A stretch of DNA of 64,000 bases from Methanohalophilus mahii DSM 5219 (GTDB lineage: Archaea; Halobacteriota; Methanosarcinia; Methanosarcinales; Methanosarcinaceae), in contig NC_014002.1 of NCBI RefSeq assembly GCF_000025865.1, forward strand, positions 930,001-994,000. Reading direction: 5' to 3'. Position numbers and translations under genes: made by a program. Under the pieces are notes generated by a model. That model searched no databases, had not been told where the DNA came from, and saw only the letters and a program-made list of their open reading frames with translations. Positions 5,174-30,382 of this stretch are shown piece by piece. The first letter of the stretch is position 1. Every line of letters starts with the position of its first letter.

Positions 5174-5722
5174 TCAATCTTCACAATTGTCCATTGTATA
5201 ACACAGGGGTCTATGTTTAACCCCTTTTACCCGTGTAGGTCCTTCATTTTTCATACCGATTTTTATTGCAACTTTCCTCGAAGCAATGTTGTCCTTATGT
5301 GAAAAAGCGATGAACTGTTTGCAATCCAGTTTGCGGCAAGCGTGATGCAAGAATATTTGGATAGCTTCGGTTGCAAATCCCTGGTTCCAGTGTTTTGGTA
5401 AAATGGACCAGTAAACCTGCTATGCTCCCTTGTCAGGGTCAGGAAGCATTCCAACAGAACCGACAAATTCATCACTGCTCTTTTTTGCAACAGTATAGGC
5501 ATAGACCTCATCTGGTTCATCGTAATTTTCCATTGTTTTATGGAAAAACCTGCGGGTATCTTTATAGGATACCGGTTTTTTACTGAAGAAAAAATATTTT
5601 GTAGCTTTATCATTTGAGATAAACCTGTAGAAACCAGCAAAATCTTTCTCCTCCAGCGGCCTTATGACAAGCCTTTTGGATTCTATGATTTCATGTATTC
5701 TTGCTGGCATGGGCATACACAT
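5174..5722 (-). CDS. GNAT acetyltransferase (RimJ/RimL-like) with in-frame TAG, possible pyrrolysine protein
   Basis: An N-acetyltransferase of the GNAT superfamily, which would transfer acetyl from acetyl-CoA to an amine. The N-terminus (SKRLVIRPLEEKDF, about residues 15-28) is the usual RimJ/RimL opening. Codon 101 (5420-5422) is TAG. Directly after it the same frame continues with the conserved core: YWSILPKHWNQGFATEAI, then the strand/helix with HKDNIASRKVAIKIGM typical of the acetyl-CoA-binding half, to a TGA at 5174-5176. Total length is 182 residues, normal for the family. Without readthrough the protein would lose the whole acetyl-CoA-binding half. In Methanosarcinaceae UAG can encode pyrrolysine. 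The alternatives are a recent nonsense mutation or a sequence error. In-frame ATGs at 5716 and 5710 are alternative starts. It diverges from the methyltransferase gene at 5829. Confidence 0.75.
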
Positions 5723-24562: not shown

Positions 24563-24880
24563 TGATGTCCCCGTGATGCTTTATTCAAAATCTGGTATAT
24601 TTAAATCATTCTGATTGTGAATTTTATTCTGGTATCTGCCGGCAAGATGGGAAGTGATAGGAATACTTTTTCAAAGCATTTTATTAAAACCACAGGAAAA
24701 ATTATCATTCATTAGTATCAACATAGTTTCGGTATATAATTGTTAGACTTGCAGCTATTGACAAATCTCAGGGGTAGATGTTTGTGTTAAGGGAAATTCA
24801 TTGTTTGGAGTTCCCTGCATTTGATAAACAATCCTGTCACATGAATGCTACATATAATAGGGGAATTTTGGAGGAAATGC
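24563..24880. other. Divergent intergenic region
   Basis: 318 bases with no supported gene. It should carry the promoter of the YggS-type gene (TATATTTAA near 24595-24603) and that of the rubredoxin-TPP gene (GTATATAATTG near 24732-24742 is the best candidate). A short GGGAA/TTCCC inverted repeat at about 24790-24816 lies in the leader of the latter. Confidence 0.4.
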
Positions 24881-26659
24881 ATGGCAAAATACAGATGTTC
24901 GGTTTGTAACTGGGTTTATGATGAGGAGGCTGAAGGACAGGATTTTGATTCACTGCCTGATGACTATACATGTCCGGTATGCGGGGCTCCCAAATCCGCT
25001 TTTGTTCCTGAAGGCGGGGAAAAGGAAGATGAATCGGTAGAAACGACTGTTGCCGATAAGATCGTCGAACAACTGGAAGCATTCGGTGTCAGGTTTGTCT
25101 ATGGGATTCCCGGGGATTCCAACCTGCCCCTGATAGACTCCATCCGCAGGAGTGATAAAATAAAATTCATTCTCACAAGACACGAAGAGACCGCTGCTTT
25201 CATGGCTTCTGCGCATGGAAAAATCACCGGCGGGCTGGGGGTCTGTATCTCCATAGCGGGTCCCGGCTCTACAAACCTTATCACCGGCTTAATGGACGCT
25301 GCAACTGATAGAAGTCCGGTACTTGCCTTTGCCGGTCAGGTGGCAGAGGTCTATCTTGGTAGTGAGGCCTTTCAGGAGATCGACCAGATAGAACTGTTCT
25401 CCCCCTTTGCTGAATTTACAGAAACCATTGCCCGGGAGAATCAGGCGCTCGGTCTGGTCACAAGGGCTACTAAATATGCCTTCAAAAAACCCGGTGTTGC
25501 GGTACTCAGCACACCCACTGATATCCTTGCCGGCAAACTTAACGGGGATGTATATTCCGCAGAAAAGAGGTTGTTTTCAAACCAGACTGCTCCCAGGTCT
25601 GAAGATGTAAAAAAGGCTGCAGAATTGATAAACAATCACGGGAAAGTCACTCTCTTTGCAGGTTGGGGCTGTCGCCACAGTGGTGAATTGCTAACACAAC
25701 TTTCACAAAAAATCAAAGCCCCAATTGCCACCACTTCTAGGGCCAAGGGTGTGGTACACGAAACCGATCGTTATAGTCTGGGTGTACTTGGTTCAATAGG
25801 GTCAAAACATGCAGCAAAAGCTGTACAAAATAGTGACCTTCTAGTTATCATAGGTTCGGGTTTCAGACAGGCCAACCTTGTTCCTTCAGGAATCAAAATT
25901 GTCCAGATAGATATCGATCCGACCAAAACCGGAAAGACCTTTGATGTAGATGCAGCTATTGTCGCAGATGCGGATCTTGTACTAAGGGATCTTCTCCCCC
26001 TTGTTGATGAAAAGGAAGAAAACACTGGGTTTTTAGAACACATCGACCGGATGAAAAAGGAGCATTATGAGGAACTGGAGGCTGATGCAAAGGACCTCTC
26101 CATCCCTGTAAATCCCGGTTATGTGATACAGGCCATTAAACGCCATGCAGCCACTGATGCTATAATTTGTTTAGATGTGGGCGACCATACATACTGGTTC
26201 TACAAGAAATTCATGTGTGAAGGGCAGAAGACTTTCATGTGTGCTAATATTGCCAGTATGGGATTCGGACTGCCGGCGGCCCTTTCGGCAAAACTTGATA
26301 ATCCTGACAGGCAGGTAATTTGTGTCACAGGAGATGGCGGGTTTGGAATGCTTATGGCTGATTTCACCACTGCTGTGCGTGAAGAGCTTGGGATCAATGT
26401 CATTGTCTTTAATGACGGCAAACTCAAGAACATAAAAAAAGAAGAACTAAGGTCCAGTTATCCTGAATTTGGTGTTAGTTTCCCCAATCCCAATTTTGCG
26501 GAATATGCAAACACTACCGGAGGCGAAGGTTACAGGATAGAGGATCCGGCAAAACTGGATGAAGCTCTTGAAGAAGCATTCAAATCCACCAGACCTACTC
26601 TTATCGATGTGGTTGTAGATCCTGATAAGACTGCTGCAAGTACCAAAAGAGCGGATTGA
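24881..26659 (+). CDS. Rubredoxin domain fused to a TPP-dependent pyruvate oxidase/acetolactate synthase-like enzyme
   Basis: A 592-residue protein. Residues 1-42 are a rubredoxin-like iron domain (Cys6, Cys9, Cys31, Cys34). Residues 55-590 are a full thiamine-diphosphate enzyme of the acetolactate synthase/pyruvate oxidase family: catalytic Glu102 in RHEETAA, a central domain at about 240-380, and the TPP/Mg motif GDGGFGML near 487 ending in FND. It would decarboxylate a 2-oxo acid. The rubredoxin part suggests that electrons leave through, or enter from, a one-electron carrier rather than oxygen. The start at 24881 is set by GGAGG eight bases upstream. A terminator hairpin follows, so it is monocistronic. 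Confidence 0.85.
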   Translation: MAKYRCSVCNWVYDEEAEGQDFDSLPDDYTCPVCGAPKSAFVPEGGEKEDESVETTVADKIVEQLEAFGVRFVYGIPGDSNLPLIDSIRRSDKIKFILTRHEETAAFMASAHGKITGGLGVCISIAGPGSTNLITGLMDAATDRSPVLAFAGQVAEVYLGSEAFQEIDQIELFSPFAEFTETIARENQALGLVTRATKYAFKKPGVAVLSTPTDILAGKLNGDVYSAEKRLFSNQTAPRSEDVKKAAELINNHGKVTLFAGWGCRHSGELLTQLSQKIKAPIATTSRAKGVVHETDRYSLGVLGSIGSKHAAKAVQNSDLLVIIGSGFRQANLVPSGIKIVQIDIDPTKTGKTFDVDAAIVADADLVLRDLLPLVDEKEENTGFLEHIDRMKKEHYEELEADAKDLSIPVNPGYVIQAIKRHAATDAIICLDVGDHTYWFYKKFMCEGQKTFMCANIASMGFGLPAALSAKLDNPDRQVICVTGDGGFGMLMADFTTAVREELGINVIVFNDGKLKNIKKEELRSSYPEFGVSFPNPNFAEYANTTGGEGYRIEDPAKLDEALEEAFKSTRPTLIDVVVDPDKTAASTKRAD

Positions 26660-26767: not shown

Positions 26768-27112
26768 ATGGCACGTAAACTAGATGAAAAAGACATAAAT
26801 TTACTGAAAAAGCTTGCACCTGAGTGCAGTGATCTGGAATGTAGCAGTTCAGGTGTCAATTTCAAGTCAATCCTGCCACCTGTTGCAAATCATTTCTCCA
26901 AGGATATATCTGATTTCTCCCATCGTCTGGAGTCACTCTCAGAAAAGGAACTGGAATATCTGCTGGATCTGATAAAAGATGGCAGAGAAAGTCTTGGTTG
27001 CTTGAGACCGGATTATGTCATGGCTTTTCAGGAAATAATTGCCAGTAGGGTGGGAGGAAAACAGGCTGGTGAAATTATCAGGATTTATACTGCTAATGAT
27101 ATCTGTGAATAA
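26768..27112 (+). CDS. Hypothetical protein, 114 aa
   Basis: A soluble, mostly helical protein of 114 residues with an N-terminal basic segment and a Cys pair in APECSDLECSSS (about residues 17-28). The helix SEKELEYLLDLIKDGRESL in the middle is amphipathic. No family is recognised and no clear ribosome binding site precedes the ATG, so the transcript may be leaderless. It lies between the TPP enzyme and the thiamine operon but is separated from both by more than 100 bases. Confidence 0.6.
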   Translation: MARKLDEKDINLLKKLAPECSDLECSSSGVNFKSILPPVANHFSKDISDFSHRLESLSEKELEYLLDLIKDGRESLGCLRPDYVMAFQEIIASRVGGKQAGEIIRIYTANDICE

Positions 27113-27260
27113 ATTGTAGAAAGGCAATAAACCTGTAAATCCTAGCATTCTATCTTAATTCTCTTTTTACCATCTGGCTGACGTAAGGTTTATTAGATAT
27201 TATGCAACATCTATTCACGATTGTGAAAAACCAATAATGGAAATTTTACGGAGGAAGGCA

Positions 27261-28052
27261 ATGAAGGATGCATTAAAAACACTGAGAGAAACAAAACCAT
27301 TGGTCCATCATATCACCAACTGGGTTACAATTTATGACTGTGCAAATATAACAAGGGCTTTTGGCGCTCTTCCCGTAATGGCTCATGCTGTAGAAGAATG
27401 TGCTGATATGACTAAAATTTCCTCTGCTCTTGTACTTAACATCGGAACCCTGACGTCTGAACTTATTGAATCCATGATAATTTCCGCAAAGGCTGCAAAC
27501 AAAAAACAAATTCCTGTTGTACTCGATATAGTAGGAGTAGGGGCAACCCAATTCAGAAACCAAATGGCTGCAAAGATCCTTGACAGTGCTCATGTTGATA
27601 TCATTAAAGGCAACTATTCTGAGATTGCAAAACTGGCAGGTGAAAATGCCCGCACAAAAGGAGTTGAAGCAACTTCTATCAATGCTGATCCCGGCCGGCT
27701 TGCAAAGAATTTGGCCATCTCAAGATCATGTACTGTTGTGATGACCGGCAAAGAAGATATAGTCAGTGATGGTTCAAGGATATTTTCCATAAAAAATGGC
27801 CATGCAGAAATGGGTTCAATTGTGGGCACCGGTTGCATGGCTGCTTCAATAATTGGTTCATTTGCAGCTCTGAACGATGATTTCTGTGATGCAGCAATAG
27901 ATGCTTTATCTTTCTTTGGGGTTGCCGGGGAATTTGCGGCTGCTAAGTCAACCGGCAGCGGCAGTTTCAAGATGCATTTATATGATGAAGTATCCGGGCT
28001 TACTGATGAAAAAGCAGGACCTATGACTAATGTTGAGAGTATTGAAGGCTGA
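27261..28052 (+). CDS. thiM: Hydroxyethylthiazole kinase
   Basis: ThiM, 263 residues, phosphorylates 4-methyl-5-hydroxyethylthiazole with ATP for thiamine salvage. The family motifs are present: VHHITNWVT near residue 16, ALVLNIGTL near 60, DIVGVGAT near 92, IIKGNYSEI near 113 and GTGCMAASI near 193 with the catalytic Cys. The start is ATG 27261 behind GGAGG; an ATG 24 bases earlier lacks a ribosome binding site. It leads an operon with thiE, a ThiS-like carrier and a tRNA thiolase. Confidence 0.95.
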
Positions 28053-28079: not shown

Positions 28080-28742
28080 ATGGCATTCTGGAAATCTTTG
28101 CTTAAAGATATTGATTTCTACCTTGTGACAGATTCCGGCCTATCCAGGAAAGGTACATTGTCCGATGTAAAATGTGCAGTAGCGGCCGGGTGTAAGATTG
28201 TTCAGTATCGGGAGAAAGACAAGACCACAAAAGAGATGATTGAAGAGGCGATCTTGATCAGGAAAATATGTGGCGAAAATGCTATCTTTCTGGTAAATGA
28301 CCGTATCGATGTAGCCCTGGCTGCAGGAGCTGATGGGGTACATATCGGACAGGACGATATGCCGATTGATTCTGCGAGAAGGATTCTAGGTGAAAATAAG
28401 ATAATCGGACTTACAGTCCATGATACAGATGAAGCAATCGAGGCAGAAAGAAAAGGAGCTGATTACGTAGGTTTCAGTCCGGTATTTGATACTACTACTA
28501 AAAAGGATGCGGGTATGGGTGTTGGGCCGGAAAGAATTCAGGCTGTGAGAAAGACAATTAATATTCCGATCGTTGCTATAGGGGGTATCAATAAAGACAA
28601 CTGTATTTCAGTTATTGAAAAAGGAGTCGATAGTTTGGTTGCTATTTCCGCAATCGTTTGTAGTGATGATGTCAGGAGAGAAACAGAGTATTTCATTGAA
28701 ACTATACGCAAAACAAAACAAAAATATATCCAGCAAAGTTAA
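28080..28742 (+). CDS. thiE: Thiamine-phosphate synthase
   Basis: ThiE, 220 residues, joins hydroxymethylpyrimidine diphosphate to thiazole phosphate to give thiamine phosphate. TIM-barrel motifs: [57 protein letters not shown] and IVAIGGIN. It lies 27 bases after thiM, with GAGGG upstream. The two genes together allow thiamine salvage from exogenous or recycled thiazole. Confidence 0.95.
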
Positions 28743-28756
28743 TGTAAAGTGATAAA

Positions 28757-28948
28757 ATGATTCTGCATTTATCAGATAATTCTATAGAAATCCGGGCTGA
28801 TAGTATACCGTTGAAAGATGTACTGGAAATGGCAGGTATAAATCCTTTATCTGTTATTGTAGCAAGGGAAGGGACCGTAATACCAGCAGAAGCAACTGTA
28901 CATTCTGAAGATACCCTTAAAGTATATACGATATCCCATGGTGGCTGA
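28757..28948 (+). CDS. ThiS/MoaD-like ubiquitin-fold sulfur carrier
   Basis: A 63-residue beta-grasp protein ending in Gly-Gly (SHGG), the mark of sulfur carriers such as ThiS, MoaD and archaeal SAMPs. An E1-like enzyme would adenylate the C-terminus, which then receives sulfur. IPLKDVLEMAGINP and VIVAREGTVIP match the helix and turn of ThiS-type folds. Its last codons overlap the start of the thiolase gene by 11 bases, so it most likely donates sulfur to that enzyme. A link to thiazole formation is the alternative, given thiM and thiE upstream. Confidence 0.8.
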   Translation: MILHLSDNSIEIRADSIPLKDVLEMAGINPLSVIVAREGTVIPAEATVHSEDTLKVYTISHGG

Positions 28949-29852
28949 AACCCCCCTTCTATGCAAAATCTGTGGAGCAAACGCAGTATCAGGAAGGGGC
29001 AACTTCCTTTGTGAAATTCATTTCTGTGAAATGGTAGAAAAGAAAGTTAGGGCACATATCGAAGATCAAAACCTTATTCTGAATAATGAGCATATAGCAG
29101 TTGCATTATCAGGGGGTAAGGACAGTAGTGTTCTTTTGTACATCCTGGCTAAAATACTTCCAGAATTTGAGGGAGTGAAACTTACTGCTATTACTGTTGA
29201 TGAGGGTATACCGAATTACAGGGAAGAAACCCTTACTTATGCACAAGAACTTGCAACTTTTTTGAATATTGAGCACAGGATAGTATCTTTCAGAGAAAAC
29301 TTTGGTGCACCCCTTCCCGACCTTTTGAAAAAAAGAAATGTTTCAGCTTGCACTCTTTGCGGTGTTCTCAGGAGAAAGATACTGGAACAGGAAACCTTTA
29401 GCATGGATGTCCCAAAACTTGCGACAGGACACTCTTTAGATGATGAGGCGGAAACCGCCATGATGAACATACTTACCGCAAATATAGATGCAATAATTAA
29501 TACCGCATCCCCAAATTCCGGTAAGGAATCATTGAGGATAAAGCCCCTTTCAGTCTTAAATGAGCATGAAATTGCATTATATGGAATCCTCAAAGGCATA
29601 TTTCATGAGTTTCCCGAATGTCCCTACGCAGGCCCTTCGCTTCGTGCAGAAGTCAGACAAATATTTTTGGATCTCGAAACAAAATATCCAAAAATCACCG
29701 GGTAGTTTGCGAATAATTATAGCTCCTTAATATCCTCGATAGCAAACGTAGAGAAACCTTTTGCCAAAAGTAAAAAAGAATGCAATATATGTGGTGGGCC
29801 CACATCAGGTGAGATATGTCGTGCCTGCCTCCTGGTCGGCACAAAAAAGTAA
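28938..29852 (+). CDS. TtuA/Ncs6-family tRNA 2-thiolation enzyme with in-frame TAG, possible pyrrolysine protein
   Basis: A tRNA thiolase of the TtcA/TtuA/Ncs6 group, which activates a tRNA uridine with ATP and adds sulfur. N-terminal zinc ligands are Cys9, Cys12, Cys25 and His28. The PP-loop is SGGKDS (58-63), the Fe-S/active-site cysteines Cys138, Cys141 and Cys228, and GPSLRAEVR (232-240) is a family signature. Codon 256 (29703-29705) is TAG. The same frame then runs 48 more codons to TAA and contains the second zinc ribbon expected of this family (Cys282, 285, 294, 297). The total of 304 residues is normal for TtuA; stopping at TAG would remove the zinc ribbon. This fits UAG read as pyrrolysine. 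It overlaps the ThiS-like carrier gene. Confidence 0.85.
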
Positions 29853-29896
29853 TTTTTTAAACCAGCCAGTTCCAGGGAATCAGTATAGTACTTTAT

Positions 29897-30382
29897 TCAT
29901 CTATCCAGTAACATCCTTCTTTCAATTGGATAATGGGCTGTAGCGGCGTTAATAAGTTCTTCGGCTGTACTTTCTTTAAAGGAGTGAACTTCAACCCGTA
30001 CGCCAATAGCTTTTAGGTGGTTTATCAGATCGACAAAATCGCCATCTCCACTTACAAGCACAATGGTATCTACTTTGGGTGCAATGGAAATCGCATCAAT
30101 TGCTATCCCCATATCCCAATCTCCCTTGGTGGAACCATCAGGTCTGACCTTCAGGGCCTTGCTTTTTACTTCCCATCCAATTGAACCAATAAAACTCTTA
30201 AAACCTGACTGGTCGATATCCGGGGTTTCTACAAGATATGCTATTGCTCTTGTCAATTTTCTTTCCATAACGACAGCACGTAAAAGTTTTTCGTAATCAA
30301 GTCTTCCGTAATGGATATTTCTGGCAGAATAGAACATATTCTGCACGTCTACAAAAACCGCTAATTTTTGGCTGCTAAACAT
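29897..30382 (-). CDS. NYN domain (LabA/DUF88-like) protein, putative nuclease
   Basis: A 161-residue PIN-like NYN domain protein. Conserved acidic residues are visible in VFVDVQNMF (Asp12), KGDWDMGIAIDAI near residue 96 and VLVSGDGDFVDLI near 112, the set that binds metal in NYN/LabA proteins. Such proteins are probably RNases. Ribosome binding site AGGTAATCC precedes the ATG. It is convergent with the TtuA-like gene and has no operon partner. Confidence 0.85.
   Translation of the reverse strand: MFSSQKLAVFVDVQNMFYSARNIHYGRLDYEKLLRAVVMERKLTRAIAYLVETPDIDQSGFKSFIGSIGWEVKSKALKVRPDGSTKGDWDMGIAIDAISIAPKVDTIVLVSGDGDFVDLINHLKAIGVRVEVHSFKESTAEELINAATAHYPIERRMLLDR

Follow-up and report, generated by a model that had tools for sequence, protein, structure and literature searches.

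The described systems closest to the gene analyzed here are the tRNA thiolases NcsA and TtuA, of which M. maripaludis NcsA (6SCY) and P. horikoshii TtuA (PH0300; 5MKO, 3VRH) have two zinc fingers, a PP-loop and three [4Fe-4S] cysteines, and which in T. thermophilus (TtuA/TtuB) and H. volcanii (NcsA/SAMP2) are paired with a ubiquitin-like sulfur carrier. Pyrrolysine is known from the methylamine methyltransferases, having been detected by mass spectrometry in M. portucalensis MttB (PMC4928046), and its insertion does not need a cis element (PMC9499178, PMC8211752). It has also been described in the tRNA-His guanylyltransferase Thg1 of M. acetivorans, where it is held to have arisen through neutral evolution and to be dispensable for activity (Heinemann et al. 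2009, in PMC2933860). In Methanohalophilus mahii itself, an amber codon in the citrate synthase gene has been noted before and proposed to encode pyrrolysine (PMC3017947).

The gene considered here, an NcsA/TtuA-like paralogue of M. mahii DSM 5219, lies in the 64,000-nucleotide stretch that was analyzed (positions 930,001 to 994,000 of NC_014002.1), referred to below as the window. As far as Thg1 is portrayed in the source cited above, the two cases are alike: both concern tRNA processing, both fall outside methylamine metabolism, and in both an amber codon in one species corresponds to sense codons in relatives. They differ in that the pyrrolysine of Thg1 was physically observed whereas we infer decoding in M. 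mahii, and in that the M. mahii gene is a dispensable-looking paralogue.

A candidate carrier-paired thiolase gene with one in-frame TAG

The frame (28938-29852, plus strand) runs for 255 codons to a TAG, the only one in frame, which forms codon 256 of 304, and then for a further 48 codons to TAA at 29850-29852 (Table 1). Rereading of the sequence confirmed this layout, as given by the first-pass annotation together with the CxxC...CxxC ribbon in the tail, and the assignment to the TtuA/Ncs6 type, TtcA group II of the tRNA 2-thiolases, was likewise borne out, with all of the expected motifs present. A profile search placed the TIGR00269 match across the TAG (residues 200-300, 75.2 bits against a curated cut-off of 62.75), and the alignment with PH0300 covers query residues 8-304 (E = 5e-41); because both alignments continue through the TAG, the parts before and after it belong to one protein.

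Table 1. Features of the carrier-thiolase locus (window positions).
Feature	Position	Strand	Evidence or remark
thiM, hydroxyethylthiazole kinase, upstream neighbor, same direction	27237..28052	+	NF006830 334.8 bits, above cut-off
thiE, thiamine phosphate synthase, upstream neighbor	28080..28742	+	TIGR00693 198.4 bits, above cut-off
Candidate ubiquitin-like sulfur carrier (SAMP/ThiS/TtuB-like), 63 aa, ends ...SHGG	28757..28948	+	Weak SAMP2 match, E = 0.0097, below cut-off
NcsA/TtuA-like sulfurtransferase paralogue, codons 1-255	28938..29702	+	N-terminal zinc finger, PP-loop, [4Fe-4S] cysteines
In-frame TAG, codon 256	29703..29705	+	RSK and M. euhalobius orthologues have CAG (Gln)
Codons 257-304 and TAA, C-terminal zinc ribbon	29706..29852	+	CNIC 282-285, CRAC 294-297

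The N-terminal zinc finger comprises CKIC (residues 9-12) and CEIH (25-28), and is followed by the PP-loop SGGKDS (58-63), which is invariant across the alignment, and by C138, C141 and C228, equivalents of the three [4Fe-4S] cysteines named in PMC10067955 and invariant in nine subfamily members. The catalytic motifs all lie N-terminal to the TAG. What follows it is one separate zinc ribbon, which the protein possesses only given read-through of UAG. As the 48-codon tail contains no in-frame ATG, GTG or TTG, it would be made solely via read-through, and separate translation of the zinc ribbon is ruled out. An AlphaFold model built from a seven-row alignment had a mean pLDDT of 58, too low to locate residue 256.

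In motif content and in full-length alignment the paralogue matches M. maripaludis NcsA and P. horikoshii TtuA, yet it scores far under the equivalog cut-offs, with 204.9 bits against the curated 500 for NcsA (NF047749) and 155.8 bits against the curated 450 for the Pyrococcus-type TtuA (NF049949). Canonical M. mahii NcsA reaches 276.7 bits against NF047749, likewise below 500, so this cut-off leaves out the canonical Methanohalophilus enzyme too. In a maximum-likelihood tree, the three Methanohalophilus genes group with NcsA-like proteins of other Halobacteriota (support 96/99) in a carrier-paired clade on a long branch, apart from canonical Methanosarcinaceae NcsA.

The candidate carrier gene shares 11 bases with the thiolase gene, an adjacent, overlapping arrangement by which M. 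mahii differs from TtuA/TtuB and NcsA/SAMP2, and two ThiF-like E1 genes in the genome could charge such a carrier. A ubiquitin-like frame ending in ...HGG stands just upstream in 9 of the 10 other subfamily members examined, with a length of 64-75 aa where the start is clear, and in the tenth (L161) a match lies downstream instead. The natural reading of these gene arrangements is that the paralogue is a putative carrier-paired sulfurtransferase.

Several further observations concern the surroundings of such pairs. A unit of ...HGG carrier and NcsA-like thiolase is conserved in several Halobacteriota families (L160, L162-L169), and some of the genomes checked have a second, separate NcsA. Upstream of thiM in the window, a 114-aa protein (26768-27112, plus strand) resembles by eye the end of the frame that immediately precedes the carrier-thiolase pair in L164, and a 604-aa frame (24845-26659, plus strand) appears, by eye, to have a rubredoxin-like N-terminus fused to a thiamine-pyrophosphate enzyme. 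The thiE gene of another Methanohalophilus genome (G035, L065, 1501-2148) has an in-frame TAG where M. mahii and G032 have Lys.

Pyrrolysine machinery and UAG usage

The M. mahii chromosome is a closed single contig of 2,012,424 bases, and a search for pylT, pylS and pylBCD recovered the complete set, with tRNA-Pyl (pylT, anticodon CUA), pylS, pylB, pylC and pylD in one cluster and the four protein genes above the curated NCBIfam cut-offs. The two PYLIS elements in the genome are both elsewhere and belong to mtmB genes. No match to PYLIS (RF01982) or to any other Rfam family was found in 28700-30000, and no RNA structure was found downstream of the UAG, where predicted folding was weaker than in shuffled sequences (z = +2.0); a PYLIS or RNA structure signal after the UAG was rejected.

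UAG usage was assessed on genes called crudely by codon usage over the whole chromosome apart from 2,424 bases. The 1,722 crude calls end in TGA (873), TAA (826) or TAG (23), and an in-frame continuation of at least 30 codons follows 17 of the 23 TAG ORFs, compared with 435 of the 1,699 others (Fisher p = 2e-6). Six TAG ORFs have short extensions, and these, together with pylB, may be true TAG ends. In seventeen frames, the sequence both before and after a single TAG looks coding; the thiolase gene falls outside this group, since the codon-usage score of its short tail is close to zero. The same crude filter was passed by 30 TAA and 27 TGA frames from pools about 35 times larger, most of which are expected to be neighboring genes sharing one frame.

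All classes of methylamine methyltransferase are represented among these seventeen frames (two mtmB, two mtbB and mttB), as are KsgA, an acyl-CoA synthetase, several sensor kinases and a DUF255 protein. The seventeen also include the genome's sole citrate synthase gene (C1:499583-500647, minus strand) and its sole coaD, encoding pantetheine-phosphate adenylyltransferase (C1:270753-271217, minus strand), each with one in-frame TAG. CoaD is needed for coenzyme A synthesis, and UAG must therefore be decoded beyond the methyltransferases, unless the assembly is wrong there. Citrate synthase resembles the thiolase paralogue in being a non-methyltransferase gene of the same genome with an in-frame TAG; unlike the paralogue, it is a sole copy argued to be indispensable, for which the need for read-through is stronger. 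Within the window, a GNAT acetyltransferase frame (5177-5722, minus strand) also has a single in-frame TAG (5420-5422, after codon 100), which is crossed by a Pfam Acetyltransf_3 match to residues 17-158.

Taken together, these counts suggest that UAG in M. mahii is in practice a sense codon almost exclusively, a base rate that makes decoding at codon 256 the default expectation, and with the complete pyl genes it makes read-through there the likeliest outcome. The proposal of the first-pass annotation that a full-length protein is made through UAG decoding thus gains support from the pylTSBCD set, from the TIGR00269 match across the TAG and from genome-wide UAG usage, and the decoding step itself is likely.

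Codon 256 in relatives and the competing readings

Alignment with TtuA/Ncs6 homologues, carried out as the first-pass annotation had suggested, gave a full-length match and two uninterrupted orthologues, in Methanohalophilus sp. RSK (G036, 87%) and M. euhalobius (G031, 85%), both with CAG (Gln) at codon 256. This suggests that CAG is the ancestral codon, in which case a single C-to-T transition accounts for the TAG. Homologues in the wider family have Q, R, N, S or A at the aligned position, which indicates that the site is tolerant, and this variability, combined with Gln in the closest orthologues, speaks against pyrrolysine being required for function. The comparison of M. mahii with RSK gave a dN/dS of 0.198 before the TAG and 0.199 after it, and that with M. 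euhalobius 0.293 and 0.369; both comparisons take in branches with an intact gene, cannot be polarized and have low power. Constraint on the tail thus looks similar to that on the rest of the gene, with which recent loss would also be compatible.

An intact canonical NcsA gene without TAG is present elsewhere in the M. mahii genome (C1:1385357-1386271), as one is in RSK and M. euhalobius. In four congeners the carrier-thiolase pair has been lost or has decayed: G032 retains a 3' remnant, G034 and G035 have about 16 codons left between thiE and the next gene, and G037 has a broken carrier gene with no thiolase match after it. These losses in sister genomes indicate that the pair is dispensable in the genus. 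A TAG in the NcsA gene of G069, considered as a second case, was rejected: it is only the terminal stop of that gene, and G069 gave no pylS match.

We consider it probable, from sequence comparisons, that the UAG is read through as pyrrolysine by neutral drift and that the full protein is made. A C-to-T transition would have changed CAG (Gln) to TAG at the variable, non-catalytic position 256 in M. mahii, and ribosomes would insert pyrrolysine at this UAG without a special signal, yielding the full 304-residue protein and some 255-residue truncated form. Pyrrolysine would here be a tolerated neutral substitute, neither catalytic nor regulatory, and housekeeping wobble thiolation would be carried by the separate intact NcsA.

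The main rival to this explanation is that the gene is an incipient pseudogene, in which a recent nonsense mutation struck a dispensable paralogue and read-through of the UAG is incidental. Because the pair is dispensable, M. mahii would tolerate a genuine nonsense mutation, and the remnants in G032, G034 and G035, the broken carrier gene of G037, the intact canonical NcsA and the long branch of the subfamily all speak for this possibility. Nevertheless, the sole lesion is the one stop codon that M. mahii decodes, and TAG makes up 32 of the 119 nonsense point mutations possible from the RSK orthologue; the carrier gene is intact (dN/dS 0.17), constraint continues past the TAG, and TAG occurs also in the sole citrate synthase and the sole coaD. 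On this evidence we regard pseudogene formation as rather unlikely. A sequencing or assembly error at 29703 is extremely improbable, for even though one assembly of the species was compared, the genome is closed in a single contig and many other genes carry an interrupting TAG, among them every methylamine methyltransferase class, in which such codons are established as genuine.

The position of the TAG, after all of the catalytic motifs and before a separate zinc ribbon, would also suit two products by design, a 255-residue form without the C-terminal zinc finger and the full form, whose proportions would follow pyrrolysine supply and make thiolation by this enzyme responsive to growth on methylamines. 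Both orthologues lack the TAG, however, no conserved signal surrounds it and the housekeeping NcsA is unaffected, which leaves this design very unlikely; a narrower link, in which Pyl256 would tie the full-length carrier-paired thiolase to pyrrolysine supply so that specific tRNA thiolation tracks methylamine growth, is highly improbable. More generally, a regulatory or catalytic role for pyrrolysine at position 256 is unlikely. The suggestion of the first-pass annotation that the capacity for tRNA thiolation might hinge on pyrrolysine supply did not hold, given the intact canonical NcsA, the loss of the TAG-containing paralogue in sister species, and a codon 256 that is Gln in the closest orthologues and otherwise variable; the idea that every tRNA thiolation would require pyrrolysine was rejected in view of that same canonical NcsA.

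Probable pyrrolysine beyond methylamine metabolism in M. mahii

Our literature search did not find a published genome-wide reading of all archaeal TAG codons as pyrrolysine. A 2025 report in Science is said to describe all TAG codons as read as pyrrolysine genome-wide in archaea, which would lessen the novelty of the present case. The gene, a paralogue of a tRNA-modifying enzyme, extends the short list of proteins outside methylamine metabolism that are candidates for containing pyrrolysine. Together with citrate synthase, CoaD, KsgA and others, it makes M. mahii well suited to testing the status of UAG as a sense codon across a whole genome. For the thiolase gene itself, the TAG looks like the outcome of neutral drift and not like a regulatory connection.
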